Below, one piece after another: positions 18,376 to 55,818 of a stretch of DNA of 64,000 bases. The stretch is taken from NCBI RefSeq assembly GCF_035582795.1, contig NC_134370.1:34211501-34275500 (forward strand). Reading direction: 5' to 3'. This stretch comes from Mycteria americana (Eukaryota > Chordata > Aves > Ciconiiformes > Ciconiidae). The notes under the pieces were generated by a model. That model saw nothing but the letters and a program-made list of their open reading frames with translations. It did no database searches and was not told the DNA's origin. A program made the position numbers and the translations under genes. Position 1 is the first letter of the stretch. Every line of letters starts with the position of its first letter.

Positions 18376-20164
18376 AAATGCAAGTATCCGTGTAACTGCT
18401 TTAAGTTATTCGGTGAGAAAGAGCCAATAAAAGCAAGTTTCATTTCCAGGAAGCAACAAGGGATCCAAGCCAGGTTTGACATTTCACTTTTTGCTTGCCT
18501 TGCTGGAACTAGAACATGCACTTTTAATATGTTTAGTTTGTAAACCTAACTTTGATGTTTCCAGTTTAGTGGACTTTGAGCAATTGTTATATTATGAAAG
18601 ATGAAGGGTACCTATCCAATGTGCTGGGTTTCCTGCCAGAAAACAAAGTCTTATAAAAACAAGATCAACCACAGAATACTGAATTCCCTTCTCACCCACA
18701 GATGGGATTTCTTTCATAAGCTTACCTCAGAGCAGGAGAGTGCCTCATGGCTATGCCTTGTCTGAGGTTTTTATTAAAGAACTTGAAAGGATCTTTTCAG
18801 CAGAATTCTTTCCCACATCACCACAATCCCAGACAGACTGTGACACTTTGCAGAATTACAGGGAGTAAAGTTGCTTCTAAAACAAAAGCACTGCAATAGA
18901 AAGCCAGGTTTCCTGGCTTCTCTAATACTTTTCCAATTTCCTTTAGCTGCTGATGCTTCTTCTAGTTTTGGAAGCAGAAGCAGATATAATAGGATAGCTA
19001 ATATTTTGATCTTGCATGCTCATTTGAGTACAGGTTGCAGGAATTCTCAAAGATGGTAGTGACATGGGACATCTTCAGAGAGTAAGGGGAGCTCAGGCAT
19101 GGGCTCCAACACTGTCTTTGTGTGAAACGATCCTAGTTTTAGATTTGGAGCCATGTCCTGTGACATAGCAGGAATATTTCAGAAACATCCTTGTATCACT
19201 GTATTCTGTTCTCTGTACCTATGGCTGTACAGGATTTAAAAGAAAGGTTCCAAGGAGCATTACAGTCTCAATATTCAGTTTGGGATATATAATATGCTCT
19301 AAATACTGAATTGACTTTGTATTCGAAGTCTACTGTTTTTCCTTAACAGAGATACTTGGAGAAAGAAGCCAGGAAATTAAGGAGTCACAAACAGAGCAGC
19401 ATGATCTACAATTATATGCAATGCAAATGTCTTTCATAATCCTTCACCTGATCTGGCACACTGCTATCAATCTAGTCATGAACCACAAGGATGTGGGGGA
19501 ACTGCATGGTGCAGTATTAAACTGTAGGTTTTGCTACAACATTTCCTTCATGTCTTTTTCTAAAAATCAATTTCAAGTTAAGCAGCAATGATACATCACA
19601 TCACAAACTGAGAACAAGACTTATATTGACCCTCTTCCTAAACCAGCATTTTTCTATTATGTTTCTTCCACCAGGAGGTTTTTGACAAAAAAGGCAAAAA
19701 AGGAATCAAAGTACTGACAATGTTTAGCAAAGAATATGCCCAAGGAGAGGCTGAAACATACACACTGAGTTCTGGAAAGGTGAGAGGGTTTTCACTCTTC
19801 TGGTTTTGCTTTCCTGCATTGCCAATGTATAGCCAAACACACACACAAAATAAAAAGTGCTTTACTCGAGGAAAAATCCAGTGGCTTTGATCTAACAAAG
19901 CTCGGCATTAAGATATTTAAAGTGGAACTACTTGGGATTTTATTCTTGACCTTTTACTTTTGCACTTGCATTTTTTTAAAAATTGGAATTTTAAACACTC
20001 ACGTTTCCCCACTAGCTTAGGCATATAATGAATATTTACATTGCTGGCAACAAGCTAAAGTCATTACTTACACTATGTATAAGCAAATATATTTCCATTT
20101 GTAGGTTCCAACCTAATGAAGCACTTTTGATTACTTGCTGAATCAATTAACATAACTTTTTTAC

Positions 20165-20300
20165 CTGAAGGCCATCTGCGCGTCTCTGTGAGAAACAAGG
20201 GTTCAGTTCAACAAAAAGCATCTCATGGTGTTGAAGCAAATATAGCAGGAGGCCATTGTAAAGCCTTTGTTCTTCACAAGCCAAGGGACTGACAGGGATC
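20165..20300 (-). CDS. FAM13C: RhoGAP gene exon D: segment following the GAP domain
   Basis: A strong acceptor, TCTCCTCTTCCCTTAG, precedes 20300 and the donor CAG|GTAAAA follows 20165. One base completes the Lys codon opened by exon C, then 45 codons follow and the exon ends in phase 0. The peptide starts IPVSPLACEEQRLYNGLLLY and continues LLQHHEMLF. The FK-IP joint and the EEQ..YN..L.YLL..HE.LF helix parallel FAM13A (FH-VP, KEQ...KI...LENY..LF). No long open frame marks this exon; it was found from the splice phase left by exon C. Confidence 0.88.
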
Positions 20301-23300
20301 CTAAGGGAAGAGGAGATGGATTAAGTTTAGGAGCTCTCAGATCAGGGGCTAATGATGAGTGACACAGGGAGCCCCCCAGTACTACCCAAGATAATTCAGC
20401 AAAGCAGCCAGTTGAGTGACTGGATAAAATGCAGTTCCAGCCTCATTTCCAACAAGCAATTGTTGGGACAGGGACCAGCTTAATTTGGTGGGTTCACAAC
20501 CCTGGGAGCCTCACAGTGACGGAGCCCCATGCAACGTTTGCTGCAATGGTTCACAACACGATGCATCTTTGAGGCCGCACAGCAAGACAGCTAGAACCTG
20601 ACAGTACCTCAGACATGAAGGTCATAAAAGCAAGGATGAAGAGGACCAAAAAAAAGCCCCAGAAATCTGCCATCACTCACTGACACTGGGGCTGGAAGAG
20701 AGTTGTTTTGTTCTAGCTTAGTTTAGGAAGGGGAACTTTGATGGCTAGAATGTCTTATTACTGGAATTGCCTGAAAAAAAAACATAGGTAAGAAACTGTT
20801 TCATTGTAATAATTTATAAGTTCACAGACATCAGGCACATCATGCAGTGGAACTTCTGGATGCTCCCATTAACAGGTTGGGTTTTGGTTGTTTTTCTCTT
20901 TTTTTTTTTTTTTTTAAATAAATAGTAGTTGAACTTGTACTATGCACCCAAGTAGACTAAGTTGGAATCATTTAATTAAAGTCAAGATATTCTTTATATG
21001 CGATTCTAATCTCATTCCCTGAAGGAACTGTGTATTCCCCCCATGAACTATTTGGAAGCTTGGAGGACATTTACATAAATGCTGTCGCCTTAATCCAGCT
21101 TCTCCAGCCGTGCTGCACCAACTCAGTTCCACCCAGCACAATATTAATATTTAAACAAGAAATTCATAAACTCTGGAGACTAATGTGGAGACATACACAC
21201 ACCAGTCTTCTGTTTGCCAAATCAGTACATTCATTATTCTTTTGTGATTTTAAAGTACTGGGCCCAGTCTAATTGCTTTCATTCACGGTCTTCTGTTGTA
21301 AATTTACTGTTGTTTCTGTAAGAACTTGAGTTTGGGCTCCTTTTGAAAGAGGATCGTTTAAGCAGAGTTATAGCCAGGTACAGCGTAGATAGATTTACAG
21401 GATAAACTACTGCGTCATCAATTCTTTCTTAAGGGCTGGCTAACATTTCTCCTTCTTGGATTCCTATTCTTCTCAGGACAGACTCAATTTCTCCACAAAA
21501 GCAAGCCTGCATGTAAAACCTGGCTGACCGAGCAACAGCCTTTCCTGCATACAACAATCCTAAGAGATTATTCATTGCTTACCCAAACATTGACGCGCTC
21601 AATTCACAGGCCATACAAGCAATCTTTTAGTCCCTTGCCTTCTTTTTCAGCTTCTTTCTTTAACTTAGGCATATGTTCCTGAATCCATCTCTACCAGCTG
21701 TTAACTCCTTACTGGCAAGGAGCCCTCCACAAGTGGTTCATGAAGTTAAACAGCTCTTGCCCTACTTATTAGGTCCCACTTTCCCTTACTAGCAGCCTGT
21801 GTTTTGGGTGCCCAGTTCTCATTTCATCTTAAAACAAATCTAAGCTATACTTTGGGATGCAACCCTGCAGCTGACTCCAAATATCAATGTCTGCTCATCC
21901 GCAGATATCCACAGGTGGCAACACATATGTATTCCAAATATAGAAAATATATTTTTAGTTTTCTCTGCAGCCACCTTCCACAATGACTTTTAATTAATTT
22001 TGTAAAATAATCACTTCCTGCCTCTTCAGATACTTCTGCTGCTAGCAGAAACCATGTTATCAGGCTGACAATAGGGGAACCATGTTCACACACTGCTAAA
22101 TCCAGGAACATGTTCCTAGGAAGAGTACAGCTACTGAATTATATTCTGCACTTCACCATAAAAGCCCTGTCATCAGTTGTAGTGCAAATCAAACACAGGA
22201 GAACAATCACTACAAATAAGAAACAATTAAAACTTGATCATCGGGAATCAGCTACTGGTTTCCTTGAGTCTAAACCTTTCAAAGTTGCTTTGCCACAAAG
22301 CGCAAGCTAGAAAATCCATACAGTCCCTTGCCTTGGCTTTGTTCGGGAGATCTGCCAAGGCTCGCTGCTGGCAGAGGCTTGCTGCAAATTTACAGAAAGA
22401 ATGAGTCAAAGTGAGTAGAAGCAAACAGCTGGCTGGCTAGCATCCTTGTGCACTCATGCAAGAATTACTTACTGAGGTTAGTAGCAGAAATCTCTTTACC
22501 AAGATGATGCATAACAAAGGAGCCATAGAAATTTCAGTAACATCAGCTGAATCTGTGATAAAAGCAAAGCAACACATTCTCCTCGGCATTTACAGAGACT
22601 AGGAGGACATGAAACAGCTCACAAGAAGAAGGATGAATGGCAAAAGAAATAAATAGTTCAGAGGATGAGCAGAAAGAAATCAACAGTAGAAGCTGATAGA
22701 AGAGTGGAGCTTAGCAAAGAAAGTCTAGGGAGTAGCCAGCCTGATACTTGACCTAAGAGTTATGTTTTTGGTTCCCTTACCTACAAGGAGGTGAGGACAT
22801 GAAAACTGCATCATGCAAATGTTAAGACTGAAGTCTCAAAAGCTAAGAAACAGGTGCCAGGGTCAAAAACCAAAAAGAAAAGCAATGTGAAAGGTAGAGC
22901 AACTTAACAGCAGTGAAGATAGCAGTGAAGATTGACTCAGTCTCACAGACAAAAATAGCATGAGGGAGGAAGGCCAGTAGAAGAAATCGGAAGGAGCTGG
23001 TTTGCAAAGGAGACTAAGGTAAAATTAAAAATTTTTACTCAGTTATGCTTTTTTATGTGCAAGTTTTATATACTAATTTTGGGTCCCCAAGGCCCATATG
23101 TGTTCCTTGTTCCAGCTACCGAATATTCTAACTCAGTCACTTCAGTGAAACTATAAGCATGACAGGTCTCCACAAATAAAAGTGTCAACAGATTGAGACA
23201 GGTGACAATCACAGACAGAATTTACACTTGAATACAAATAGATCAAAAATTTAAAGTAAAAAGGCTTATAAACAACCTACTTTCTTCTTTAATGTCAAAA

Positions 23301-26300
23301 AAGGAAGAAGTAATTGCACAAAAACACAGATTGCCAGAATACATGCAGAACAGTTTTAACACCTGCAATGAATTAGTGCCATAAGTGGAGCTGACATTAC
23401 ATCCAGGAGGTTATTTCCAACAATTGCATGGGGTATACATTTCTGCAGATTAGATCTAGGGTTGTTCTTTCCATAACCTTCACGTTCTGCCTGAACAACT
23501 GTAGCAAGTACTACCCAACGTGTCTCACTTTCCAGCGAATCTACGCTCTGGCTGCCAAATGTTTCATAATGCGGGGGCTAATTGCACTAATTCTTGCTCT
23601 GGAAGACATAAAGGATATTCATGACTTTATTCCCTGTATCAGCAGATATGGTTTAGCACATTAGACTACCTTGAATTTTGCTGCTGTACAGGACAATACA
23701 AATGGTTTATTCTGAACCATTCGAGGCCCCAGGTCACTCAGCAGGAAGTGGTACAGCAATCTCACTGAGAGAAATTGCCCGCTGCAAGGCTCTCCTCTCT
23801 GCCCGACTACCAAAAAGGTGATTTTTCATAATCCTAGGAGGTAACTCTCTAAGGACACCCCTAGTTATACACTTACTGGTTTCTCTCCCAGAGCTAGTGA
23901 GATCAGAATAACTGCAAAAAGCTGGAGTTAATGTTCATAGAGCAGATATACTTCTAGTTATGGTATCTGTGGTTTTCTTAACAAGTCACTCTGGCAGGGA
24001 AACCTGATGCTGATCGTTTTCAAGGCTTCTCAGGCAGGTCATTGCCACAAGCATGTAGTTTAGCCCTAAGCATACTTTAAAAACCAGAGAGAGGGGCATG
24101 TTCAGAAGTAGCTGGACCATCTCCCAAAAAAGAGTGGGATGCTTAAAAACTGAAACAGCTCAGCAATCAATAAGGGAGCCTACTGGATTCTTATGTATAG
24201 ATATAGAAATCAGTGGGCACAAGTTCAGAGAATTTGGGAATGGAGATAAAGGAATAAAATAAAGTATTCTTGCGTGTGTGTTCATGCACAGAAGCCCCAT
24301 GTGATAGTGAAGGGGGCCTGATGGCAGAAGAGTGACAGTGCAGTCCTTGTTGAGTTAGTGTTGGGGCCAAGGGATAGATTTTTGGTGAAGGCCTTTTGAC
24401 ATCAGCCTTTTACCTGTTTATGTTATAAGTATCACCTCGCAACTAGTCCAGACGCTGGGAAGTAAACCTCTTCTGCCTACACTCATTTACTGATTTTAGC
24501 ATGCAGATATTAAGGAACTTGGGGTCTGGCTGTAGAACTGCTTTGTTCCATCACTGAATATCCTCCATGGTGAAGCCTGTTCTCAGAGGAGTGAATGGCA
24601 TAACTCCTACCACACTACCTGTTGTTAGATTCTTCTCCCTAGCTGTACTTTTGCTAAAGTAAGGGTCCTTTTACTTGTAACACCTGCAAAGGTTATAAGC
24701 TGGTACATCTGGTGATAAGCCCACAGAGCAGGTAAGCAGGCACAAACATAGAGACCTATGGAAACAGCAGCAAGGTTTAAGAGCACATTTCCCCAAAACA
24801 AAGCCTGTCATCGATTTCTAATATGCTTGGTACCAATTTTGCTGAATGTATCTTTTTAATAACTTACTTGGCTTGCCATACAAAAAACGTGAAAAATAAC
24901 AAGGCTTTTCTTACTGCATAGAAAACACTAATTGTTAACATATACATTTTGCAAAGTGGCATTGGCTTATAGCTCACATTAAACTGGAATGGCTCTGATC
25001 CACTAAAACAAAGGTTTACAAATTGTAAGACAAGTATAAACATTTTAACATCTGCTAGTGTCAACATGAAGGATAGGATAAAGAACTAAATCGTTTAAGC
25101 TTCACTGGAAAATCCTCCATTATCAGATCACTCTAGGCTGTTCCTTCTCACCACCTTGACTTACATGACACATGCCCTCCCACCTTTCTTTTTTAGCATC
25201 CAGTTATGCATCCGCTTACCATCATCCCAAACATACCTTCTCTAGCTTCAGCCAAGCACTTACTGCTTGCAAGCTCAGCTGGCCTCTGCTCGGACGTCAG
25301 CTTGCATTTTAGCGGCAAGGGGAGAACGAGTTACTTCTCTTTCTTGATAGAGGAAATTCCTTTCTCTGATATCAAATGCTATTACGAGGTCAAAGTCAGC
25401 CTTAGCTTTTCAGGATCAAGGCTAACAAGTAAGTAACCTCCACAGCCAGCACTTAGCTTGGCTAAGAAAAGAGGAGTAGTTGTCATTAAACAGCTCTCCA
25501 TTCCTCATGCTTCTTCTCTTTCAGACGGTTTCTTACTTGAGGCTGGCCCCGTACAGTCAGTGCCTAACAAGATGAAGGTGGTCAGCCAGCTCAGAATGTC
25601 ACATCTGCCCATAATATACTATGTAAACATTTAACTGCCAAAATGCTGCACTTACTATGGGACGTACAGTTATGTCAGAAAGCCTCGTTGTAAAGTGTGA
25701 TCTAGTAGTACTATTTAAGGTAGCTACATAGAGAGTACTCACTTGAAAAGAGCAGGTCCAAACACAATGGCTAGGTTTTCCAGAGTCATGAAATTCACTG
25801 CACTGTACGTTGCTACCTTTAACAGGAAAGCAGACAGGAACTGAAGAAGGTTTTGATGGGCTTTGGGCAGGCAGCTGAGCAACTGCCTCAGGTTCTCTAT
25901 GCATTCTGTTGTGTGGATTTTGTGCTCTAGAGGGGGGGAAAAAGTTATTACATAGATATTCCTAGTAATAACACAATTTCATCATAGGCATTATTATAGA
26001 TCTGAGAAAGAGGGAAGGTTTTAAAATATATTAGAGCAAAGTAAAGAATAAATATGTCCTAAACAAAGAATTTGTACACTAAATTGTGACAACAATTTTC
26101 ACATATATTAATATTTAAAGTACCATAGATTTTCCACATATTGGGTTTTATATACACTGTTTCTGCTGTTCTTCCTGTTATGACAGAATCATCTAGCACT
26201 TGCTGTTTTTTTAATGGAATTGCAGGCAGTAGTCATGTACCTGAATCCTTAAAGCTGCCTTTAAAGATGATACAAGACTGTCAACCTTGACTGTCCCCAG

Positions 26301-28324
26301 AGATTTTACACATGCTGCATGATTCTCGTTAAGAGGAACAAGAAAATGTACCCTTTCACCCCCCATCATCTTCATTTCCTGACTAATTGGTAGCTCTCAG
26401 TCTCAAAACATTTTTGCTCTATAAATATGCAACTGTAGTTACACAAGAGATGCTTTAAAATCTAAATTGGGGATACTTAGCAATTTTTTTTGTTTTTCAT
26501 TCTTCAAAGAAGAGTTACGAGGCAGAAAATGGGTTCACAAACAACTCTATTTGATCAGCAGTTCAGAATTAGTATGATAAAGTCTCCTGGTTATTAGAAC
26601 TGAGGTGACAGTACTGCTCAATAACTGGCAGTGGATGCTCAAATTTGCCATAGATCACCAGGACACATCTGCGTAGCTTTGACATCATGAATAGCAAATC
26701 ATGCCCTAAAGGGCAATTTTAGCCCTAAAAAGTACATTTCATAAGGGCCAAGACCCATGTTGCTCAACCTATTAATGAGAGATATGGAAAAGGGGATAGA
26801 GAGGGGAAAAAAAAATAAAATTTAAAAAAAAAAAAAGAACAGCAAGACTGTTCAGGGTAGTCAAAACAAGGTTCTTGCAAAAACCTGTAGATCTTTCAGC
26901 ACAGACTTTCATGGTTGATGAAAATGACTCCTTTCTCTTTTTCTCCTTTCTTTTTTTTCTTTTTTGTAAACATGTACATAACTTGGCATTTAGCAGATGA
27001 AGTTTGAACAAAAGCAACCTGCAATCTAACGCACAAACCCCACTTATTTGTATGCAAACACCTGAATTAGATATCACTCAAAATCACCGGGCAGAATCAT
27101 CTGAAGGCATTAGCTCAGCCATTATAGACAGGAATAGGGAACCAGAGAGTGTATTGCTGTAGGTACTCAACTTAGCTTTGTACTTTGAACTCTTCATGCT
27201 TCTCCACACAAGGAGAAGCGTGCTGTCCAAGGAGACAGCATGCTTCCATGGACAACATGCTGTCCAAGGAGACTATAAGAAAGCTAGTAAAAAGTACTAA
27301 ATAGGAACAGGGATGTACAAAAAGGCTCCTGTACAAGGGAAGGTTAAATAGAGAAAGAGGCTCCCTAAAGAGAGAAGTGAGGCAGTGGCTATATAAAGGC
27401 ACAAGCAGCATTATGATGGTGATTAGAATAAAAATAAAAATGTTATCCCAGTAACAAGTAAGGTATCCAATTTAAAAAGAAAGCATGCAGAAGAGGTACT
27501 TTCTCAAAGAATACAGGATTGGATTGCAGAATGCCTTGCCACAGGACATTGGCAAAAGCCTTAATGAATTAAAAAAAAAGACTATAGACAAGTTCATGGA
27601 AGACTGGTCCATCAAAAGCAATTAAACATCAGTCTCGGGTTAAGGAAACTTAAATCCTTGCTTATAGGAAGGTGCAACGAACACATTATCTGTCACTGTC
27701 AGAGGAAGGACAGCAGCTTGGAAGGTGCCCATTCTGTACCTTGGAAAGTTTTTAGCAAGCTAGAACAGATGTTGTCTGGAAAAACAGCCACTGGCAGTTC
27801 TTTCAGAAAAAGTTTCAGGAGACTGGCCACAGAATCAACATCTCCATCATTAATAAGGTCTACTTTTTCTCCTTGATTGTATTTCTGCTTCAATTCCTTG
27901 ATTTTATTTACTGAGCCACTGATTCGAAATATACCGACATGCTCCAGGCCTGTTTAAGAAGAAATATGAAACAGTAAGCAATGGTTGCATTACCATGCCT
28001 GTGTGATAAGAACTGGATCTCAAAAAGCAAGAACTCCTCTAAGAAAGCATAATTGTAAAAAGAGACTTTTCAGCAGTTACAGCTGAAAAGTACAGCTTAA
28101 ACAAATAACAACAGTTTTCAGAGACCAACCAGGGAAAACATGAACTTACCAAATACTTCTAGATACTCCACCATCTGTGTCACAAGAAAAGGAACTCCAC
28201 ATTGCTTTGCATCCTGTATGAGGGTTTCCAGAGGAACACCAAATGTGCTTCTTTCTCTGCTGAACTGTAGATCTGGTGAGACTTTATTTGTTGTGTGCCT
28301 GACTTGAACAGAAGATAATGATTT
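20165..28324 (-). CDS. FAM13C: FAM13-family RhoGAP gene, partial (four internal exons)
   Basis: Exons 28324-28150, 27949-27740, 25926-25743 and 20300-20165 join in frame into about 235 residues. They start after FGVPLETL and VPFLVTQMVEYLE and cover the RhoGAP core. The catalytic arginine finger lies in GIFRISG. The helix LLKLFLKELP keeps the conserved Lys but has Lys for the more usual Arg. NLAIVFGP holds the conserved Asn. RhoGAP domains speed GTP hydrolysis by Rho-family GTPases. After the domain comes FKIP...CEEQRLYNGLLLYLLQHHEMLF, which resembles the stretch after the GAP domain in FAM13A and FAM13B. Strand and position next to SLC16A9 match FAM13C in human 10q21, so the symbol is inferred from synteny and family. 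The human FAM13C protein is usually described without this domain. The start exon was not found and the 3' exons are probably beyond base 1. A lost-in-mammals separate RhoGAP gene is the alternative. Confidence 0.75.
20301..25742 (-). other. Intron between RhoGAP exons C and D
   Basis: This 5.4 kb stretch includes a T tract at about 20890-20916 and a small tandem repeat of the unit AGCAGTGAAGAT near 22910-22933. A donor-like TCA|GTAAGTAA near 22468 is not needed, since exons C and D already join in phase. No other gene is seen. Confidence 0.75.
20890..20917. repeat. Poly-T tract
   Basis: A T run interrupted only near its start, followed by AAATAAATAG. It could be the reverse of an A-tail, but no retrogene body is seen next to it. 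Confidence 0.8.
25743..25926 (-). CDS. FAM13C: RhoGAP exon C: C-terminal half of the GAP domain
   Basis: The acceptor CCCCCCCTCTAG precedes 25926 and the donor AA|GTGAGT follows 25743. The 184 bases complete a Glu codon, code 60 residues, and end with two bases of a Lys codon. Diagnostic segments are NLRQLLSCLPKAHQNLLQFL and NFMTLENLAIVFGPALF. They hold the conserved Asn of NLA.VFGP that contacts the GTPase. The long open frame reported over this exon (25904-25599) is in a different frame and is not the gene. Confidence 0.93.
27198..27273. repeat. Clustered hairpins and a 16-base direct repeat
   Basis: Arms GCTTCTCC (27198-27205) and GGAGAAGC (27212-27219) form a perfect 8-bp stem with a 6-base loop. 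GACAGCATG (27234-27242) pairs with CATGCTGTC (27256-27264). TGCTGTCCAAGGAGAC occurs twice (27221-27236 and 27258-27273). Confidence 0.85.
27485..27655 (+). mobile_element. Diverged CR1-like LINE fragment
   Basis: The sequence resembles the CR1/L3 3' region: GATTGCAGAATGCCTTGCCA, then CAGGACATTGGCAAAAGCC, an A-rich stretch, and GACAAGTTCATGGAAGACTG followed by GTCCATCAAAAGC. It is old and fragmentary, lying inside the intron just 3' of RhoGAP exon B. Recognised from memory of the repeat family. Confidence 0.5.
27740..27949 (-). CDS. FAM13C: RhoGAP exon B: arginine finger and LLKLFLKELP helix
   Basis: The acceptor TTCTTCTTAAACAG precedes 27949 and the donor CAAG|GTACAG follows 27740. The 210 bases complete a Gly codon, code 69 residues, and give one base. 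The peptide contains LEHVGIFRISGSVNKIKELK (finger Arg in GIFR) and then DGDVDSVASLLKLFLKELP. It is the most diagnostic part of the domain. The plus-strand open frames over it are shadows. Confidence 0.93.
27950..28149 (-). other. Intron between RhoGAP exons A and B
   Basis: This 200-base intron has GTAAGTTC at its 5' end and TTCTTCTTAAACAG at its 3' end. It contains nothing else. Confidence 0.88.
28150..28324 (-). CDS. FAM13C: RhoGAP exon A: N-terminal linker and first GAP helices
   Basis: The acceptor TTTTTATTCCCCAG precedes 28324 and the donor G|GTAAGTTC follows 28150. The 175 bases code 58 residues plus one base, beginning KSLSSVQVRH in phase 0. They end FGVPLETLIQDAKQ, VPFLVTQMVEYLEVF. 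The FGVPL...VPF..V..MVEYLE pattern is the usual RhoGAP opening and fits the FAM13 subfamily well. The ATG must lie upstream in another exon ending in phase 0. Confidence 0.88.
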
Positions 28325-31300
28325 CTGGGGAATAAAAACAGGCAAATGATAAGCAGAAACTGGTTTTTATTATTTTAAGGTCCAGTGGTCTACATCTTAG
28401 GTAAAATTATTGTCCTCGTTATAGTGTCTTAGTACAGATTTTACTTCTACTGCATGTTCTTAAAATACTAGTATCATTCTCCTTCTGTAGAGCTGAGACA
28501 GGACCTGTGACAGGGTAAATCCTAATAAAACCCATTCACACCTACATTCAGAGAAAATGGGGCTCCAGGTCAAGGCAGATGCCCTGTTTAGGGCAGGGAG
28601 GGGTTGCTAAGCCCCTTCCTCAAGAAGAGCCCCAACAGTCAGGAAAAAGGCTGACCGAGTGCTAGTGCACAGCCTTCCAGCCCCGTGAAAGCTGTGAATT
28701 TCTACCCAATTCACAAAGATAAAAAAATGCAAGAGGCAAATGCAGAAGTCCAAACTGGGAACACCCAGATTTACCAGTTCTGCATCAAGAATATTTAGAC
28801 AGTATCTGCATTTCTTTTTAAAGGGGGATTTTAATTTTTTGTAGCATCATCCCAACACATTCTAAAAATAGCCTCTTCTTCAATGTTTTTATTACTGTGT
28901 TTTCAGAGGGAAAAAGGAAAGACTTTCCTACAGATTTGTAGCTGAACCGCTACAGAAAAGCTGTTTTTCAGCTCATAACGCACACACCTTCAGTAAAGCT
29001 GCAAGCCAGAGCTCTGCGAAGCCGCGCTGCCATGGTGAATGCACACAAACACTCACTGAAACACCTAGACCTCATTTTGCTCTTTCACTACATATGCAAG
29101 CTTAGAACGCGATGTTAATGCTAAAGCATTAATAACCACCTAAAAGGAACCAATATCAGCATGTATCAAACGTATTTTACAGCATTTTTATAGACAAGCT
29201 GCAAGATGTTAAAAAAAGCCTCTAAAGTATCTATGATATATTACTCTAAATACCTCCTCTTTCCCTCCTCAGATGCAGCAGTTGGGTTGGGGGAAGAAGC
29301 ACAGCCTTCTCAGAAATAAGAAAGGATATAGGAAAGGACTCAGGAAGCCAGATTTAAGTTCACTTACACAAATTGAAAGGGAGGCACTTGCTCCCATATT
29401 AGACTGCAGGAGACCGTCAGTATTTCAGCTGTGCTGCTCAGAAGACACCGTCACCTTTCTTCCCTTCACAAATCCATGCAGTCTGGCCAAAGCTAACTGC
29501 AGCCATGGGGCTGTTCCTCTGTAATTAACTTATCGTAGCATAATTGCTAGGCATCATCTTAAATCAGTAGTTTCAACCCAGATTTTGTCAAAGGTAGAAA
29601 TTAACTACTAGTAGAAGTGGATTCCTTGTAGCCAACGCTTGCCTCCGGAGTCACGTTGCACAACTGATGGATGTGTTACCATCAGGAGATGTTTCCATGG
29701 CACCTAACACACACAATGGCACGGCTTCCTGAAGCACGCTGATCGTGTCCTTGATATTTACTTTTGAGTGGGTTTTTTCAGTTCAGGTTTGCAGATATTC
29801 ATACTACATGCTGTCCATTCTGCCTGCTAGCAGCAGTAGGCAAAATATTTTGAGATGGCCTGCAGTGTATACATATTATAGATACATATTTATATAACAC
29901 CTGCACAATCATTTTGGTAAGGATCCATCCAGCCTTTGAAATACGGAAGATGTAGATGCTGTTAAGCCCAACATAATTCGTTACTATAATTCTTTCAGAT
30001 AGAAAGCCTCTCCTAGGAAATAAGCCACAACGAAGCAAGTAATGTTGCAGTTAAATCTTATCAGGGGAGATTCTTAATACAAATTTGGTAGGTACATACA
30101 AAAGAAAAACAAAACACAGCAAAATGAAAAAATACAGGCGCTGAATCAGACCCCTTGGTGGAGCACTAGAAAAGCAAGAGTTACTCTGTCAACGCATTGG
30201 ACTGCTGGTTCAGCACAGATGGTAGAGGCGATTCCCTCTTCCTTAGTAGAGGGAATACCACTTTAAAAATAGTGCAGATTTTTAGCTCACTCACCTCTCT
30301 ACAAGATCCTGCGATGAGGTCTGGAAATGCTATGGTTTATGGCTTTCCTGCCCACCTGGCATGAGAAGAGCCCTCACAGAGGTGACGGCCTTATCTTCAC
30401 ATTAGGGCATGCCAGCCCCCACCATCCAGGCGCAGCCAGGACATGGCTAAATCCCTAGAGAGTAGGGTTCATGTCTGGACAAAAATTCCTCACTGCCGCC
30501 TCTGGTTGCACCAGATCTCCGCTTTCCAGCCCTCAGAAAATTATGCATTTACCCTGCTGTGCACCAGAAGAGGCTGGCTGGCTTAGTCAGCCCAATGGGC
30601 TTTTAATCCCTTTCTCCATGGTGCATGGGTCATTCCTGCAGCACGGCTGACTCTCCCCAAGCCCATTTTGGCCAGCGGCATGCAAAGCTCAGCCCTCCCC
30701 TCAACACCACTGTTCCCCACAGCCCCTTCGCCTGCTCTGCCCATGGGCTGAACTGGAGGCAGATACCACCTTGCCCAGCAGCCCACCCTCTCCCAAGAGA
30801 GCAAGAGAGGGGCCCCCACACAACCCCCCCACCCCATGGCTTCCTGCCGGTGTCTGCTCGGCAGCCCTCCCCACCACCCCCGGCAGGGGCAGCCTGGCCC
30901 CGTCGCTGCAGATGTGCTCCACCTGAACCCATCACCACAGCTGTGGCTGCTTGAGGGGCCCTGGCCCTGTCCCGACCCCTCCAGCACTGCCACCCTACCA
31001 CATTACCCACTTCACAGCTAAGCCTGTTCAAAGCTGTTGGGCCCACAGGCAGTGCCGATGCTGATGGTGCTGTCCCCCCAACACTGCTCCGTATAAAAGT
31101 GCTAAAAAAGAGAAGAAAATATGTTGGTCCTCCCATACCTCATGGTGCGACTGCCCTTCTCTGGCACAGCAGTATGTTGTCCAGTGCTCATATCTGAGGA
31201 TACGGGGGGCATTTTGGTGTGCAAAATCCCCTCCCTGCTGCATTCAAATCCTCTGCCTCTGCCCTCCAGCCACCGTAAACAGTGCTCTCCCACCCTCCAT

Positions 31301-43372: not shown

Positions 43373-46300
43373 CTGAGGGTGAAAATAAGAGAGAAGCGCA
43401 TCAGTGAGAAGTTAAATGTAACACAGCACTGTAAGTTAGAGAAACATCATTAAAAAAACCAACAACAACAAAAAAAGGCCAAATCTAAAATGCAGCTTGA
43501 CCACTTAGACGTGAAATGTGCTTTTCATCAAAGCCAAAACAAGAATACAATCAGCTTGGCCAGCTCAAGCAAAACAGGCTTTAATTTTTGTTGAAGATTT
43601 TGATTTCATCTTTCCATTATTACTAGGACCAACTAGAACTACTTGCATGCAAATTAATTCTGCCTGGTCCTGACAAGCTCATGTTCATTTTATAGTGTCT
43701 ACCTTGATCTTACCTACAATTGGTGGTCCGAGGCTATTTCCAAGTCCAGCAAAGAACATCAATATCCCATACGCATGAGTCAGTTTCTCAATTCCCACAG
43801 TCTTTGTTGTTACATATGGAAAAATTGACCAGTTCCCAGTCAGAAAACCCAAAATCCCAGAAAGCATCGCTAATGTAAGGTAACTTTTGGCAAATGGAAT
43901 TGCAAACAAGGCCACTCCTGTCATTAGTAAGGTAGTTACATATAGATATAAAGTGTTAACCCACTTAAAATCTGCCAATATTCCTAAAGTAAGTTTGCCA
44001 ACAGCGGTCATAATGCCTATAATGGAAATAAGGGGCATATGATAGTCATCTTCATTAATGTTTGCACTTCTTGCTACATCTTCCATGAGCAGAGAAGGAG
44101 GAAATCCACCAATATCAAAGAGCAAGATGGCAACAAAGAGAGCTGAAAATACTTTGTTCTTAAAAAGAACCACGGTTTCCTCCCAGTAGTTCAAATAGAG
44201 CTGCCACTTCCTTTTGGCGAGTTGCTTGCAGAAGTTTGTCTGTTCTACAACTTTCTTTTTATAAGTGTCTTTCTCATTTACATTTATTGAGCTTAATACA
44301 TTCTTATTTAAAATGGTATCCTGTTTGTAATCAGGTATATTGTTCGCACATTTTTCATCAACGTAGCCCTTTTCAAGGATGCTTATATTTTCTTCAACAG
44401 TCTTTTCTTTTTCATGGTAAACAAAAAATTGATCTGGAACTTTGTCTACACATGTTTTTTCTGGTGGAGGGGAATCAAATGACTCCAACGGTCTCATTAG
44501 GCTGCCACATGCTAATATATTTAGAGACAGTGCGCCAACTATTAGCAGACAACCATCCAGTCCATATAGATCAATAAGCTCTCTTTGCAATGCTGCATAT
44601 ATAAAGAGTCCAACACTTGAGCCTATAAAAGGAAAATAAGATCAGTTTAAACTCAAGAACTGAGAACATTCTTCAACACTAGCAAACTTCTACATTTCAG
44701 CAGCTACAAATATACTGTCATAGGAATGGTAAGTCATTTGTGCTCCTCCCTCCCCAGTCAATGAACTGGTAAAGTTACCATCCCTCCTGAAGTTACAGTT
44801 TCTTTATTGAGTATGCACAAAATAAAAAGCCTTTCAAAATGTCTGAACAACTTATGATGATTAACACTAGCAGACACTTTAGAAACAAGTAGGATCAATA
44901 CTATATCTGATGAAAAACATCAAAGAACTATTAAGCCATCCTTCTGCCATGCAGTCACATATGTGTATCCCTTCAGGTACCATTTTGTGTTAGCACAGTT
45001 AGAATTTCACACACCAACAATTTCCCCTTTCTCCTCCTCACTGCCACCTTCCTCCTCTAAGGCAGGAACAGACCAGGGGTTCACCAAGAGCCCTCCTAGA
45101 AACAGCCCTTGACTGCTTGGTGTTTAAGGAAGGGGGCTTACATGGTGGGATTTTACTCCAAAGGCATTTCTGAAGCTCTGCAGGGCCAAACATGCATTTG
45201 AGAAATTCAGCTATTCAGAAGAAAACACTGAAGAGTAAGCAATTACTGTGAACACAAGCATTTTATGCAATCCCACCAATTTAAAGAAAAAGCTCTCAGT
45301 TGAAGTGAGCGTAGATCCATTGTAATCTATGGATGTCCACTCACAAATACAGAGCATTGGTTTTTCAAGTCAATTTAAAGACAAACTTTAAATTAAAAAG
45401 AGTTGCTGAAGACTGTCTCTAGGTTATATTAAAGCCATTTTTATACTTCAGTGATAAACATAGGAAAAGATAATTATAACATTCAGATCTGTTGTCTTCC
45501 AGATACTAAAATTAACCAGGGCTCAATAAGATCAGGCCTTAAGGCAAACCACCTGGAATCCCAAAAAAGCCACTGAAAATAATTCCAAGGAACATTTCTG
45601 CAGAAGTCCCCCTTTATTCCATTGGTGTGGATCTGGCATTAATATCTCACAACACTGACTGTACTGACCAGGCCTCTCCTCACTAACAGCTACTTGAGAA
45701 TTTTCCTTGTATTATCAGAGGTTCATTTTTCTAGGATCCGTTTAACATACATGGACAAAAAGCTGGGATGAGCTTTAGGAAGATTCCAAATTTAGTCTCC
45801 TTTTAGATTGAAAATGAAAAATTATTAAACATGTAAGCCCAGACTTCAGCTACTCCTTTAAAGATACAGCTAATGTTGAGGTTATAGTGATCCAGTATTT
45901 ACATCCTGCATCTCCAACCTCTTTCTCACCTCTGATCTTGTGTAAGAAAGAAGACAGCTCTATGGAAAGTTTCCCCTCTCATCACCCATGGCATACAGCC
46001 CAAGCTACTCATGAGTCTGCTTTCATTTTAGTGAATATCCTTTTCTCATCTGTATGGATAACCCACACCATACACCTGCAAGTGTAGTTACTATTTTATC
46101 TGAAGCCTGATTTTATCTGTTTATTGCTACTGCTGTTTTGACTTAAGAAGTACTTCAGGAAGTAACTGAGAAAAGTATAATCTCCTGGTTTTTATTGCCA
46201 AGGTAATGGTAGCTCTATCAGAGTTGAAAAGTGAGACAGAATGACAATTAAAAGTCATACCTGTTGAAATCAGACCAAGTGCAAGGCCTCTGCGTTTGTC

Positions 46301-49300
46301 AAAATAGTGGCAAGTGATGGTAACTGTTGCGGTATACAAAAGGCCACATCCAAGCCCTTGAGAAAAAGAGTTAGAAATAAAGCATGCAACATACTCTGGG
46401 AAATGAATGCCCCTTCTTATTCCCCAGATAATACAGTAGTGTACCCTAGGCACAGAGGTACCTTTTAACTCTGGCTCAGCACCAGCCACACCAGCCTCAT
46501 AGTGACAGGGCCTTTAGGCTGCCTGCACTGTCCCATCTCCCCCAGCCATCCCCGGCTGCAGAACCTGCGTGGAGCAGGCTGGGTTTGAGGAGTTCACCAG
46601 CTCAGGTTCTGTGCTACGTGGAAGGGTTACATGGCTTTCAGGCCAGCAGCTGGCCCCAGAAAAGAGCAGAACTGTGTCCACATGGCACTGTGCCCGAGCC
46701 AGCACACTGCTGGGTGCCTGCTGGCCAGAGAGGTGCCCGGATTCCTGACACAGTTAATTTGATAAACCACCCACAGCAGCCCTCTGCAGCACAGAGGGGC
46801 AGGTCACCACCTGCCAGGAGAACAGGACATTCATGCCTTTAGCACAGCGTTTTAGGTTGAATCCAGTTACGTGGAGAACAACATTGCTCCCTAATGATCC
46901 CTAATTTATCAAATTAGAATGAGTACATGACAAAACTCCTGAAGAGATGTTATTCCTTTAAGACTGGCACTTCACCCCCGCAGAAGACCTGCTTGATTCC
47001 ACACCTTAGGTAAAACCTCAGCTTCTCCATCTCTAACAATCACGTCAACAGAGGACAAACTGTTTTCAAACCCTGATGAACATATGCATTACCTTTATCT
47101 TTCACTACATGGTAACAGTCTGCCTGTGCAACACCCCTCCCCGCCCCAAAGTAAAGTATTCCTTGATAAATCAAGTCCCAGACTGCTGCTGCCTCTGTGA
47201 ATCAGCTTCCCATTTCAGATTCATAAACCAAGACTGAAAATAATAAAATTAAGTCTCTATAAGAAGGAGAAGTGTTTCTTACCAACAACAATCCCATATG
47301 AAATATATAGAAAGTATATGTTAGGTGCAAAACTGCTCATCATGAGGCCCCCGGCCACCATAAAGCCACTGAAAATTGCTACTGGTCTTGCTCCAAAAGA
47401 TGATACGCATATACTGCAGACAGGACCTAGATAGAGGACAAGCAGAAAAAACATTCCTAGTAAATAGCAGCACCAGTAAGAACTTCTAAAAAATCTCAGT
47501 CTATGGAAATGTTTCTTGAGACAATTATTTATATTTACAGGATTCTTTAAAAGAGTCAGTTACAAAAAACCATACAAGATCAGGCTTGCAAGATTTTTGC
47601 TCAAGGAGAAACTGACATCAAGACCACGAAATGGTACCAAGGTTGGGAGGGAGAGAGCAAGCAAAACATTCTTTAAATACAGGATGATACATACATACTA
47701 GACTGTAACACTGTCACTGCACACCTAAGGACTTGTACAAAGGTTCTGAAAAGAATCTTCCTCTTTAGGTACCAAAAGAAGTTAGACCATCAGCCAGGTT
47801 TTAACTATGCGGATATTTTTTGACAGAGCCCAAAAAACTGTGTTTCAGAAAAGACAGTATCGGTATTCATCTTGATATAAGATGAGATTTATAAAACTGA
47901 AATGGAAAATAGTAACTTCTGATCATAATCATGGTAAGAATGCCACCTGCTGCTGTCACAGAGGAAATATCTGCTGATATACCAGATAAAGACAAACAGT
48001 ACTCTTCCCTAATCTTCTAGGGAATTAAATACCTGCTAGTTAGTATTCTACCAAATAACTGTTTACTACTTATCTTGGTTTCTACTGTAAAACTATGGAA
48101 ACTAGAAGGCATTTATTGAGAACGTCCAGAGCAATGTTCATGAAGTTTGGAAGAGGTTTCTTCCTCTCCTTACCCGCCCAATATGTCTTGGTTGGTTAGT
48201 TGTTCAAGAACAAAGTGCAGGCAACATTCATACTCTGCCTCTGCTCAGCCAGTTCTCCCCTCACAGAAGTTGTACAACAAGCACTTATTTTCAGTTGTGT
48301 GACCTGGAATACACCTTTTAGTCTGAAGTAGTGTGCAAGCTTGGTGCCTTGCATAAAGAAGCGACCAGCAAGGAACTTGGCTTGCAAAAGACAATCTCTC
48401 ATCTGAAACCCTGCAGTGCCAAACATTCATGCATAGACTTATATATTAGCCCCAAGATCCCAAACTCAGCAACTCTGAGATTAGAAGTTAGATACACAGA
48501 TGAATGACATTATTTAAAAACCAACAACCCCCCCACCACCACCACTTTTGTATCTCATTCGCAGTGATACAAAGACACTCCATGGTCAAAACAATCTGCA
48601 AAAGCAGTAACTTTGGAATCTGCCGTTTGTTAAGGTTGGTCCTCCCTGACTCACACATAACTGAGATTCCCAACAGATGGGCGATGAGCCCAGAGAGGTG
48701 ATATGAGGTGAACAACAGTTGGAGCTGAGGACGGTGCTTGCCTGGGTTTGCAGACAGGAGCTAGCAGCTGGGAATGTAGGCAAGATTTTTGTGTGGTTAC
48801 TGGCCCTGGGACAAGCAGTTCTGGCAGGCAGGAGCACAGACTCGTTAGCAGGTGAAATGATTCTCAAAGGCAAGGCAGGTCAGAACTTTTGCCCTACGTA
48901 AGAGCTATCTACCTAGGGAACGTAAAGGGAAGCAAGACTGAATTGGGGCTCACCCAGGCAAAGAGTCAGAGTTAAAGAAGAATCGAGAAAAATCTTCTGG
49001 GGAAGTGGGGCTTATTTGGATTTTGGAAACGATGAAAAAGGAAGATGTAAGCGCTCGCTGCTTCTCAAGAGTCAGCACGCTGTGGGAATGAAAGACAGCC
49101 AGAATAACTTGGGCAGAGTAGCTTGCCGAGAACAAAAGCTGAGAGTGTTAGATCACTGCCGATTCTTAGAATTAATTATTAGAACTGGCAAATTAAGATT
49201 GGTATGTTTCCTAAAACCACGGGATTTAAAAATAAACAAAGGATTGAATCTGTATTACATAAAAAATTCTTTTACACTATAAGAACATTAGGTAGTGATA

Positions 49301-52300
49301 ACATAATTCAATTAAGCAGAGGAATTTGCACTCTTTCTATTCTTTATTTCTCACCCACTACCTTGCTAAAGCAAACAGTATTTCCCTTCCACCTGCCCTC
49401 TATATTTCAACACAGCTACTTTCAGAACATCTCTGTCCAGCCTGGGGTAGTGGGACTGGTACAGACGGCACTGATTGCTACTAGAGGATCCAAGGTGAAG
49501 CTGGACCCTCTGACCCCGAGCCAGGACAAGGGAGATACAGAGCTGAAAAACACGTCTCCATAATCTGACAAGGACAGTCTCCTCTGGAACACCATCAAAA
49601 GCATCTCTGACAGGGTCCAAGGAGATGCTCTTCCAGTTTCTCCCACTTACAAAAAATAATCCCAAAGAAGAACAGGAAGTACAAAGAGATCTTTTTGCTC
49701 TGACATGGAAAACAACCTGCACAAAACTGAAGAACCTGCTCCAATAAGCTCAGTATTAATGTGTCATCTCACACAGCAAGAGATCTGGCAGCTCAGCAAT
49801 GACCCTGTTTATAAGAAGGAGCGCCAGTATAAGTATTAAAATAGTTATTATAGGTTTCCAGGACGAGAAGAAAAACAGCTCCATCTTCCCGTTCACACTA
49901 GGCCCTACTTTCATACTCCCCTCATTGTACTGCTAGAAAATAAAAGTCACAAAAGAAAACCCCCATGACAGTCAGCATCTTTGTTCTTTTCCCTGCCTCC
50001 TCGCATTCCTCCTCTTTCTCTGTTTCCCAAAGAGCTGGCATTTTTTTTTTTACCAGGCACAGTACCTTTGGTTATTACCATGGTATTTGCACAGTTCACT
50101 GTACACAAACATGTTATTCTCTACAAGTAACTCAAGCACAATGGGTTCAAGGCAGTTAATTCTGGTCAAACATTCAACTTCCCCAGAGTGGGACTGAGAC
50201 TTGCTCTGTGAACTCCTGCCCTGTGGATTTTGTTCAAAGTGGACATTCTGAAGAATGTAAGAGTCTACATACAGCGGCATAGGAAACAGCTCTTCAGGCA
50301 GTATAAGGGTTTTCATTTCGTTGACTCTCTTTCAGAAAGATCCTTCCATTGATAATGTATTTCTCATCATAACGTGAACAACAAAAATAAAATCCCAGTG
50401 GCAATCCTCAATAGTAAGCATGGAAAATGGCTTTTAAGCCAGCATTTTGTTCAGTTTGCCAAGCAACTCCAGGGGTTAGCACTGGTATTAGAATAATATT
50501 TGAAGACATTGATAAACATTTACCTCTTTTACAAATAAAATCTCTGGGGCTTTTTTTCTTCCAAATGATGTATCTTAAAACTAGACCAAACTCTGTCAAA
50601 AAAAGATAGCAGCCCAGTTTATAAGAATAACAGCTACCTCTAGGAAAAAAAACTGTATTGTTCTGAAAGACTTAGAAGCCAGCACAGGCAAAGCCACCGC
50701 TCTTCTGCACACAACTTGTCAAGGCTTGGCAGCCAGTAATACAATTACCAGGCTCTGCAGTGGAGCAGTCAAGAAGATCCCTAGACAAAATGGGAAGAAA
50801 CAGCAGAAAGAAGATGGGTTCTCACAGTAGATCTTCATGCAGAGAGACCAAAGAGGAAGAACTCCTAGGAAGAATCATTTGTACATTGATATTTTCATTA
50901 AGATTTTTTTGAATAAAAGACTTTACCCTCAGTGAGACCTGGATGTGACATTGAGTCCTTCCTGAGATGTGAAAACAAGCCATCTGCTGCTCACACAGGA
51001 ACTTTACAACTACCGCAATCTTCTGATCTCCTGACAAGTACAAAGTCGTTTTGTTTAACAAACATAAAGAACTAAGACTCTCTTCCTCAACCTTCTCACA
51101 TGAAGAGAAAAATTCTGCAAACTAACACTCCCTTCCCTCCACTCGCCCATCTCAAGGGTCTTCCCTCCTTCACCTCATAGGCATACAAAACCTTTTGTTA
51201 AACAAACAATACAGGACAACTGAGTTCTTTTTCTTATCACCTGCATTAATCTGACCCACCCTACTTGCTAGTATCTGTTCAAGCCTGTTGAAACTGCAGA
51301 GTAGAAGCAATGCTCATGGACTGCACATAAAATCCACTGGACAGAACACAAGAATATTTTTTGCATATTAAATGCATTGCTAAAACCTGGTCATAATAAA
51401 TATAATATTCTCCAAGTGTTTGTACTTTGGATAAGAATATAGCTCAGAAAAAGCCTTTTTACACTGAACAGCAACCAACTCCCAACGGGTTGAAAGGACT
51501 GCTCCTTTCTGATAAAGTTATTATATGAACTAGGCTCCTCTTCAGAGGAATCTTTGGGACACCCTCTCCACTGCCCACAGACTATACTTCCATAGTTTAC
51601 AGCAGGGGCTACCTATGTGCAAGGTTTTTGTCCAAAAGTGTGTAGATGCTGCAAGTTGAAAGTTGTAAAAATATTGCTTGAAAACACAAAATTAAGCTTT
51701 TTAAACATTTAACACTGAACGCCTCAGATCAGCAGAAACACCCCATTAATTTATCAAGACATGCCTTTCAAGGGAGAATCTTCCCTTTGTTCCTTCTCCA
51801 TTAATAAAGGGAAGTTGGAATGGGAGACATATTGCTGATGTCTCCTGCTATGCCAAATACTGTGAAGTCAACTCTTACTATAAACAGCTTTGGTGCCAAT
51901 TACGGGCACCAAGGTTCTTGTCTGTTTTGCTTTTAACAAGTGTAACAGATCAAATTTAATTTCAGGCCCGAAATGGATGTAAAATTAAGACCACGTGGTG
52001 CAGGAGAAACGCATGATCTTCAACAACATAACAAATAGCCTTCTCTGGCCGCTTTTAGTAGGGGAAACATGCTGAGCTCTTTCAATTTCTTCCTATGCAA
52101 CAAGCCCTACATCGTCCATGGAGCCATTTGCCGCATCCCCTATAGCCTGACCAGCGTTATGACACCTAGTATGGTAGGGGAGGTCTCACCACAGCCCTGT
52201 ACAATAACACTGATGCTTTTCTTTCACCGTTTTAGGCACATTTCTTCCAATACACTGTAAGGTCACATCACAGAAAGTTGTAACTCAAGTCATCCTGCAA

Positions 52301-55300: not shown

Positions 55301-55785
55301 ATTACCATTCAGTTTCCCAGACAGAGTTTGGTTTTTCTAGTTTATTAAAATGCAATAATTTTCTAAGGGTAATATTTTTATTGCTCTTTTACCATTATAT
55401 TGGTTTGGTTTATGTATAGTGGAACTACAAATGTCATCTTCTTACCCATCTTGACCTAAAAGAAAAATGCAGCATCCTCATTCCATGACTTGCAGCTGTC
55501 TTTAATATAATTCCAAAAGCACACACAGATGAAAGCATCTATTAGAAACAAACGTTTCTATTTAAGATAAATACTGCATCTACACTTACTGGCAAGCAAT
55601 CCGATTCCATTTGCTAGTGATCCAACCCAAGCAGTCTTGCCTTTCCCTTCTCCAAAAGCATCCAGCCATTCTAAATACAAGACTCCCACCGCCAGCGGTG
55701 ATCCATAACACAAGAACTGAGTAAAGAAGGAAACGACAACAATCACCCAGCCCCAGCCACCATCTGGTGGTTTCCGAAATTCCAT
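43194..55785 (-). CDS. SLC16A9: Monocarboxylate transporter 9, complete coding region (5 coding exons)
   Basis: This is a 12-transmembrane major-facilitator carrier of the SLC16 family. Family knowledge: MCT9 sits in the plasma membrane and has been linked to carnitine efflux and urate levels. Joining 55785-55590, 47426-47283, 46356-46261, 44622-43714 and 43372-43194 at GT/AG sites gives 507 residues with no frame conflict; human MCT9 is about 509. The SLC16 TM1 signature DGGWGW is at residues 8-13. The second signature, [17 protein letters not shown], is at 131-147 and spans a splice junction. A hydrophilic loop at about 190-290 separates the two six-helix halves, and the protein ends in a short polar cytoplasmic tail (KVASRA). 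The start was chosen because [10 protein letters not shown] matches the family N-terminus; the open frame upstream of it lies in UTR and intron. All four coding junctions interrupt a codon after its first base. Nothing looks broken, so the gene is probably functional. Confidence 0.97.
43373..43713 (-). other. SLC16A9 intron 5
   Basis: This short 341-base intron has a GTAAGATC donor and a TTTTCACCCTCAG acceptor. It holds nothing else recognisable. Confidence 0.85.
43714..44622 (-). CDS. SLC16A9: SLC16A9 exon 5: large exon, TM5-TM11 and the central cytoplasmic loop
   Basis: The acceptor CTTTTATAG precedes 44622 and the donor G|GTAAGATC follows 43714. This 909-base exon codes residues 147-448. 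It starts in [13 protein letters not shown] and completes helices 5 and 6 ([19 protein letters not shown]). It then crosses a charged, low-constraint loop at about 190-290, ending in the basic stretch [13 protein letters not shown]. Helices 7-11 follow, with the family-typical segments [29 protein letters not shown] and [19 protein letters not shown]. An ATG inside the exon (MQREL in antisense-frame calls) is not a start: the real exon has Leu-Gln-Arg-Glu there, continuous with the upstream exon. Confidence 0.97.
44623..47282 (-). other. SLC16A9 introns 3 and 4
   Basis: Intron 3 (46357-47282) contains a GC-richer patch near 46500-46800 with chance open frames on both strands. Intron 4 (44623-46260) is AT-rich. 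I see no further genes in either. Confidence 0.7.
46261..46356 (-). CDS. SLC16A9: SLC16A9 exon 4: TM4-TM5 with the second SLC16 signature
   Basis: The acceptor TTTTTCTCAAG precedes 46356 and the donor G|GTATGACT follows 46261. The 96 bases complete Gly114, code residues 115-145, and give the first base of Gly146. The peptide includes [16 protein letters not shown], then [15 protein letters not shown], the conserved loop before helix 5 in SLC16 carriers. The short length and matching phases on both sides make this a safe exon. Confidence 0.95.
47283..47426 (-). CDS. SLC16A9: SLC16A9 exon 3: TM2-TM4 region
   Basis: The acceptor CTATCTAG precedes 47426 and the donor G|GTAAGAAA follows 47283. 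The 144 bases complete Ser66, code residues 67-113, and give the first base of Gly114. The peptide runs from [20 protein letters not shown] to [13 protein letters not shown], two hydrophobic helices joined by a short loop with the GARP turn. The surrounding sequence outside the splice sites has no recognisable protein character. Confidence 0.95.
47427..55589 (-). other. SLC16A9 intron 2
   Basis: This 8.2 kb intron separates coding exons 2 and 3. Open frames in it, such as minus 49722-49366 (118 codons), lack family similarity and usable splice context. A possible LINE relic lies near 52.1-52.3 kb, and a perfect 8-bp hairpin (TTGGTGCC / GGCACCAA) at 51890-51912. Confidence 0.7.
52060..52330. 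mobile_element. Possible CR1/L3 relic in SLC16A9 intron 2
   Basis: The block around GGGGAGGTCTCACCACAGCCC and the following CTGTACAATAACACTGATGC reads like the reverse-oriented segment common in L3/CR1 copies. Boundaries and orientation are uncertain. Confidence 0.3.
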
Positions 55786-55818
55786 CTTGTCAGATGAGTG
55801 CAGATGTACGGGCAGGAC
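55590..55818 (-). CDS. SLC16A9: SLC16A9 exon 2: end of 5' UTR, ATG, TM1-TM2
   Basis: The acceptor is TTTACACAG before 55818. A 33-base untranslated stretch leads to the ATG at 55785-55783, preceded by GACAAG. The exon codes residues 1-65 and the first base of codon 66, and ends at the strong donor A|GTAAGTG after 55590. It carries the SLC16 signature [17 protein letters not shown] of helix 1 and the conserved loop [20 protein letters not shown]. The frame stays open upstream of the ATG through the UTR and across the acceptor, but that part does not look like protein. Confidence 0.95.

Follow-up and report, generated by a model that had tools for sequence, protein, structure and literature searches.

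To our knowledge, human FAM13C is a protein of approximately 585 amino acids that has no RhoGAP domain, and neither ARHGAP35 nor ARHGAP1, whose RhoGAP structures (PDB 3fk2 and 1grn, respectively) serve as references below, carries a FAM13 tail. Two RhoGAP tables list FAM13A and FAM13B, in papers whose text has no mention of FAM13C (PMC11139668, PMC7281527), and the latter table gives RhoA as the target of FAM13A and describes the target of FAM13B as not yet determined (PMC7281527). A paper on FAM13C states that FAM13 proteins may signal via a RhoGAP domain in exons 2–5, for which it cites a 2004 paper on FAM13A1 (PMC5458224); these exon numbers fit those of the Mycteria americana exons presented here. 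In the literature searched, as far as its text was available, we found no report of a RhoGAP domain in FAM13C itself; automatic database annotations may already show one. The text on a chicken FAM13C variant does not distinguish a long from a short form (PMC6210987), and the passage of a cattle Iso-Seq paper gives no domain information (PMC10012480).

In M. americana, we found a complete RhoGAP domain upstream of, and collinear with, the exons of FAM13C, an arrangement that FAM13A and FAM13B also display in the same genome. The domain is encoded by four exons (e1–e4, with bounds set by splice sites; Table 1) within the window, by which we mean the whole 64,000-nucleotide stretch of DNA analyzed, starting at C6:34211501. 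Joined in frame, these exons give 705 nt without a single stop codon, encoding a product of 235 amino acids. When sites were scored using general splice-site frequencies, all four acceptors fell within the top 0.3–1.1% of the 12,214 minus-strand AGs in a 174-kb stretch, and three of the four donors fell within the top 0.6–2.7% of its 10,095 GTs, with the weak donor of e2 (GTACAG) reaching only the top 8.4%. An exon scan that combined splice score, codon score and phase ranked e1 fourth of six candidates, e2 first of two, e3 first of one and e4 first of five. Since the codon term, which was trained on only 935 codons, was positive for e2 only and negative for e1, e3 and e4, this ranking was carried by the splice sites and the open frames. 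One of the 13 training strings (FAM13B exon 2, which was off frame) was dropped from the scan, and was also omitted from the linking-exon search described below. Outside FAM13C, the upstream neighbor consists of coding segments resembling a gene that we take to be SLC16A9 (Table 1).

Table 1. Features of the window, in window coordinates.
Feature	Position	Strand	Phase (entry to exit)	Sequence and remarks
GAP exon e1	28150-28324	minus	0 to 1	KSLSSVQVR...FGVPLETLIQ...VEYLEVFG; homologue of FAM13A exon 2
GAP exon e2	27740-27949	minus	1 to 1	Arg finger GIFR and Lys LLKLFLKELP
GAP exon e3	25743-25926	minus	1 to 2	conserved Asn in NLAIVFGP
GAP exon e4	20165-20300	minus	2 to 0 (compare FAM13B exon 5)	C-terminal helix of the GAP module
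Candidate first coding exon	30787-30837	minus	phase 0 donor	MGWGGCVGAPLLLSWER; lead only
SLC16A9-like coding segments	43685-55938	minus		upstream neighbor, outside FAM13C
SLC16A9-like ORFs	43685-44641, 46127-46513, 47257-47559, 55558-55938	minus		

The 235-residue product matched the RhoGAP profile PF00620 over its full length (model positions 1–147 of 148, E = 1.8e-41), with a score of 141.9 bits, above the curated cut-off of 24.5 bits; the corresponding scores in this genome were 153.2 bits for FAM13A and 130.3 bits for FAM13B. The same profile search also listed Fanconi_A_N and PAH, both at chance level and below their own cut-offs. There were 45 distinct PDB sequences that matched the product at E ≤ 0.001, with 3fk2 (the RhoGAP domain of p190/ARHGAP35) at the top, whereas the best solved-structure match of FAM13A was ARHGAP1. 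The motifs GIFR, LLKLFLKELP and NLAIVFGP mapped to what we take to be the catalytic columns of ARHGAP1, at which FAM13C displays R (the finger), K, K and N, FAM13A displays R, K, R and N, and FAM13B displays Q, R, Q and S. FAM13C thus keeps the Arg finger, the Lys and the Asn, as FAM13A does, and differs from FAM13A in having Lys in place of its second Arg (FLRELP); in FAM13B, all three residues differ, with Q at the finger position, R at the Lys position and S at the Asn position. Judged by these residues, FAM13A and FAM13C look GAP-competent, while FAM13B does not. The domain and its catalytic Arg, Lys and Asn columns are also common to ARHGAP35 and ARHGAP1. These results bear on three points made in a preliminary description of the locus: its four phase-matched exons were reproduced in bounds and frame, with coordinates exact to the base, and its full RhoGAP core with Arg, Lys and Asn was borne out by the profile match and by all three residues; as for the FAM13-like helix that it placed after the core, LLLYLLQHHEMLFVE does align with MTKMLENYNTLFELE of FAM13A, but the alignment is weak.

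A search of the whole genome with the product returned 10 matches, four of which were the query's own exons. The best non-self matches genome-wide were at C4:52169849 (E = 3.7e-12) and then at C8:6018230 (E = 1.7e-10), which are the FAM13A and FAM13B loci, respectively: the human proteins align there over four exons each, at 72.5–76.7% and 90–96% identity. Across the core of the domain, FAM13C was 43% identical to FAM13A and 40% to FAM13B, compared with 34% to ARHGAP1 and 32% to ARHGAP35. Searches of the collections viral_contigs and genome_contigs gave no relatives.

Using the human FAM13C sequence as the query, we located the FAM13C tail in eleven segments, arranged in order on the strand of the GAP exons, from C6:34160584 down to 34105302, which places them 71–126 kb downstream of the GAP exons. 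The coding exons of the mammalian short form, from MFSCFCFS... onward, are thus matched in order and on the same strand, but this short form is not known to have a RhoGAP domain, whereas M. americana has GAP exons upstream. One of the eleven segments, RIDQ, was weak (E = 0.048), six of the eleven were found again with a composite query of this genome's own tail segments, and residues 22–37, 128–144 and 170–197 of the human query had no match in the tail search. Composite-query searches placed the tail exons of FAM13A at C4:52.045–52.061 Mb, approximately 88 kb downstream of its GAP exons, and those of FAM13B at C8:5.98 Mb, approximately 30 kb downstream, in both cases on the same strand. The long form of FAM13A (C4:52.045–52.173 Mb) resembles FAM13C in having its RhoGAP domain in exons 2–5, upstream of the tail, and in the start of its first GAP exon (QSKSAVRLK, compared with KSLSSVQVR in FAM13C), and differs in that we did not recognize a linker in FAM13C. 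FAM13B (C8:5.98–6.02 Mb) has the same exon layout. The inner GAP introns are in phases 1, 1 and 2 in all three genes, and FAM13C has its entry phase of 0 in common with FAM13A and its exit phase of 0 in common with FAM13B.

In the first coding exon of the FAM13C tail (MFSCFCFS...), the start codon falls within the pyrimidine tract belonging to a good 3′ splice site. The human protein begins with MFSCFCFSLQDNSF and its M. americana counterpart at C6:34160584 with MFSCFCFSIQDNSF; the DNA at this position reads ATGTTTTCTTGTTTCTGTTTCAG/CATTCAGG..., where the slash marks the splice site, so that the ATG and the codons following it make up a pyrimidine tract ending in CAG. This buried acceptor scored 5.4, within the top 1.2% of AGs, and the seven acceptors scored alongside it ranged from 4.0 to 7.6. 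Its position is 23 nt into the coding sequence covered by the alignment. For 8 of the 10 other tail segments, the best acceptor was at most 11 nt from the start of the alignment; the VTKQ segment has an acceptor at offset 0, although a different one scores best, and no acceptor of QEEED passed the threshold. Alignments can thus run a few codons into introns by chance, but all eight residues preceding the buried acceptor are identical to those of the human protein. When entered at the buried acceptor, the FAM13C exon is 39 nt long, runs from phase 2 to phase 2 and ends in GCAGA/GTAAGT, while exon 7 of FAM13B is 42 nt long with the same phases and the same end. Since the two peptides (IQDNSFNTTALAE in FAM13C and SAHISPISILPASAE in FAM13B) are hardly alike, the homology that we propose between these exons is based on their phases, lengths and donors and on their location within the gene. 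On this basis, we interpret the first coding exon of the short form as exon 7 of a long ancestral gene, and the short form of FAM13C itself has the look of a truncated version. GAP exons aside, the buried acceptor is the strongest internal sign that coding exons once lay upstream, and maybe still do.

We consider it highly probable that e1–e4 are exons 2–5 of a predicted long form of FAM13C, a numbering that assumes one upstream first exon. A long transcript would start at an upstream promoter and open with a short first coding exon, followed by GAP exons 2–5 and one or more linking exons (phase 0 to 2); it would then enter exon 7 at the TTTCAG/C acceptor and continue through the rest of the gene. 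The encoded protein would combine the FAM13 coiled-coil tail with GAP activity toward a Rho GTPase, possibly RhoA by analogy with FAM13A. The short form found in mammals, which has no GAP domain, would stem from a second promoter located in the intron preceding exon 7; its transcript would keep the old acceptor as coding sequence, its first residues, MFSCFCFS, being the translated pyrimidine tract. In mammals, only this short form would remain. We lean slightly toward the fuller version of this reading, in which the MFSCFCFS start of mammalian FAM13C is a splice acceptor that came to be translated once the 5′ half with the GAP exons was no longer used, through transcription from an intronic promoter across the former 3′ splice site of exon 7, and in which catalytic and non-catalytic forms coexist in M. 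americana.

Among the eleven tail segments, four exons were phased, and these start in phase 2 (n = 3) or phase 1 (n = 1); e4, which ends in phase 0, cannot splice directly into any of them. Because exon 7 is entered in phase 2, a transcript leaving e4 could reach it only by way of one or more linking exons running from phase 0 to phase 2, as exon 6 does in FAM13B. The LERTIR...VEQHLFD linking exon of FAM13B had no match in the FAM13C region (174-kb stretch); this exon is presumably also part of FAM13A and absent from human FAM13C, so its absence, although a point against the long form, does not exclude FAM13C. An ab initio scan of the 71 kb between e4 and exon 7 yielded nine candidates of type 0 to 2, the best of which (C6:34204429-34204475, 47 nt) scored 16.1, compared with 8.2 for the best candidate of the same class on the other strand. 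Scores in other phase classes were as high as 17.7 (other strand) and 22.4 (same strand), and we presume that some high-scoring candidates derive from repeats; the 47-nt candidate is therefore a lead that is not significant against the controls. The distance of 71 kb between the GAP exons and exon 7 counts against a long form. A search for the first exon gave 10 candidates, none of them convincing, and the one with the top combined score for donor, Kozak context and CpG is included in Table 1. Between 19 and 44 kb, no 600-base window had both a GC content above 0.5 and a CpG observed/expected ratio above 0.6.

That neither homology nor the ab initio scan yielded a firm linking exon would fit a rival reading in which the GAP exons make up a short gene of their own, or a FAM13C isoform truncated after e4, and encode a free RhoGAP domain. 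A minus-strand AATAAA at 19939–19944, approximately 220 nt past the e4 donor, would fit such a transcript, as would the frame of the retained intron, which stops after a few codons (VKKLC, then a stop). However, AATAAA is common (123 matches on the two strands of the 64,000 bases), such that one would occur by chance in approximately 1 in 5 stretches of this kind, the e4 donor is usable and in the phase that it has in common with FAM13B exon 5, and exon 7 keeps an acceptor that requires an upstream coding exon. We therefore regard a separate short transcript in place of the long form as unlikely, while a short GAP-only isoform, produced for example by intron retention, could coexist with the long form.

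Less likely again is that the GAP exons are a relic that is no longer expressed, the long form having been lost in this species too, recently enough for the exons to look intact. The weak e2 donor, the lack of a CpG-island window between 19 and 44 kb and the negative codon term in three of the four exons are in keeping with this idea, but 705 nt are free of stops and frameshifts, all eight splice sites are present and the catalytic residues are kept. In simulations of neutral decay (2000 replicates, with an assumed indel rate), the probability that 705 nt would persist without a stop or an indel fell from approximately 0.16 at 2% divergence to approximately 0.009 at 5% divergence and to approximately 1e-4 at 10%. 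Given that an intact 705 nt is improbable beyond approximately 5% neutral divergence, any loss of function of the GAP exons in M. americana would have to be recent. A chance or old-pseudogene origin was rejected on the E-value of the domain, the open 705-nt frame and the decay simulation.

The predicted long form of FAM13C also presupposes that the domain is a FAM13 domain. We built a RhoGAP tree of 14 rows, several of them incomplete: the three FAM13 genes, two PDB sequences and nine other loci of this genome, the latter being a small part of the 150 RhoGAP matches that had been scored. Two loci were dropped (L001, which is the same locus as C2_118, and L002, which is FAM13A itself), two were left out because they were covered by C4_32 (L004) and the window (L005), and 20 N-terminal residues were trimmed from the three FAM13 rows. 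FAM13A and FAM13B grouped together at 98/95, and FAM13C joined this pair at 84/85, below the starred threshold. Seven of the 11 inner branches were open, so the tree says little about other RhoGAP families. At C4_32 and L007, two further RhoGAP loci, the fragments are interrupted close to the model positions of the FAM13 GAP introns, so these inner introns may predate FAM13. Inner intron positions alone were rejected as proof of FAM13 membership, as the breaks are alike in at least two other RhoGAP loci.

That the domain comes from another RhoGAP family that happens to adjoin FAM13C is very improbable: the sub-threshold 84/85 and the best structure match being to ARHGAP35 (3fk2) rather than, as for FAM13A, to ARHGAP1 would be consistent with it, but the two top non-self matches in the genome are FAM13A and FAM13B, core identity to both exceeds that to ARHGAP1 and ARHGAP35, and position and strand are as in the FAM13 genes. 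The likelihoods attached to these three alternatives are not exclusive of the long-form reading. From the genome-wide best matches, the tree, the intron phases and the collinear downstream FAM13C exons, the assignment of the GAP exons to FAM13C is well supported. The orthology to FAM13C claimed in the preliminary description is thus supported by the FAM13A and FAM13B matches and the collinear tail, and in our RhoGAP tree, a check that it had proposed, the domain does group with FAM13A and FAM13B, at a moderate 84/85.

The layout common to FAM13A, FAM13B and FAM13C makes it likely that ancestral FAM13C had a RhoGAP domain, and the acceptor buried in the first exon of the short form strengthens this argument from sequence. 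The same features agree with the ancestral domain that had been suggested before us; the accompanying statement that birds keep the domain holds as far as intact exons in one genome (n = 1). A loss of the FAM13C RhoGAP domain in mammals is plausible in view of the human protein and of the RhoGAP tables cited above, from whose papers FAM13C is absent. What is new here is a third RhoGAP-bearing FAM13 gene, along with the reading of the short form as beginning in a translated acceptor.

FAM13C features in several prostate-cancer expression signatures, and its function is described as unknown (PMC5458224). If the ancestral gene encoded a competent RhoGAP, human FAM13C would be the tail of a Rho regulator without its enzyme, which would provide a concrete hypothesis for the function of the human protein and would call for caution with the general claim that FAM13 proteins carry a RhoGAP domain. 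The gene would then also be a clean example of promoter choice removing a catalytic domain, with what is left of the old splice site remaining readable. If both forms coexist in M. americana, catalytic and non-catalytic FAM13C could be compared in one animal.

We detected several overlapping open frames within a GC-rich stretch between the GAP exons and SLC16A9, a possible candidate promoter for the FAM13C long form; no window around it reached the CpG-island threshold (600-base windows, GC > 0.5 and CpG observed/expected > 0.6, window 19-44 kb). One candidate for the exon linking the last GAP exon to FAM13C exon 7 resembled the C terminus of a CR1-type LINE product, a likeness that fits a sauropsid genome.

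Features in the window and elsewhere in the Mycteria americana genome (C6, the window's contig; C1, C3, C221 and C232, other contigs)
Feature	Location	Remark
GC-rich stretch	window 30580-31140	
Linking-exon candidate	C6:34176477-34176647	
Main RhoGAP array	C3:121470494-121662718	at least 27 copies among matches listed
Further RhoGAP arrays	C3:108.59-108.62, 113.54-113.58, 114.90-115.44 Mb	
Further RhoGAP arrays	C1:174.29-174.30, 181.39-181.41 Mb	
Further RhoGAP arrays	C221, C232	

The same genome also holds large tandem arrays of RhoGAP-bearing copies, which look like a strongly amplified RhoGAP gene. In the main array, the copies among the matches listed were spaced ~7.37 kb apart; every one of them had a 386-aa open frame and matched over two stretches. 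Copy numbers are lower bounds, with 150 of 395 candidates scored.

Because Q, R and S replace the Arg finger, catalytic Lys and Asn, respectively, the RhoGAP domain of the paralogue FAM13B (contig C8, 6.013-6.019 Mb) is, judging from its sequence, probably non-catalytic.
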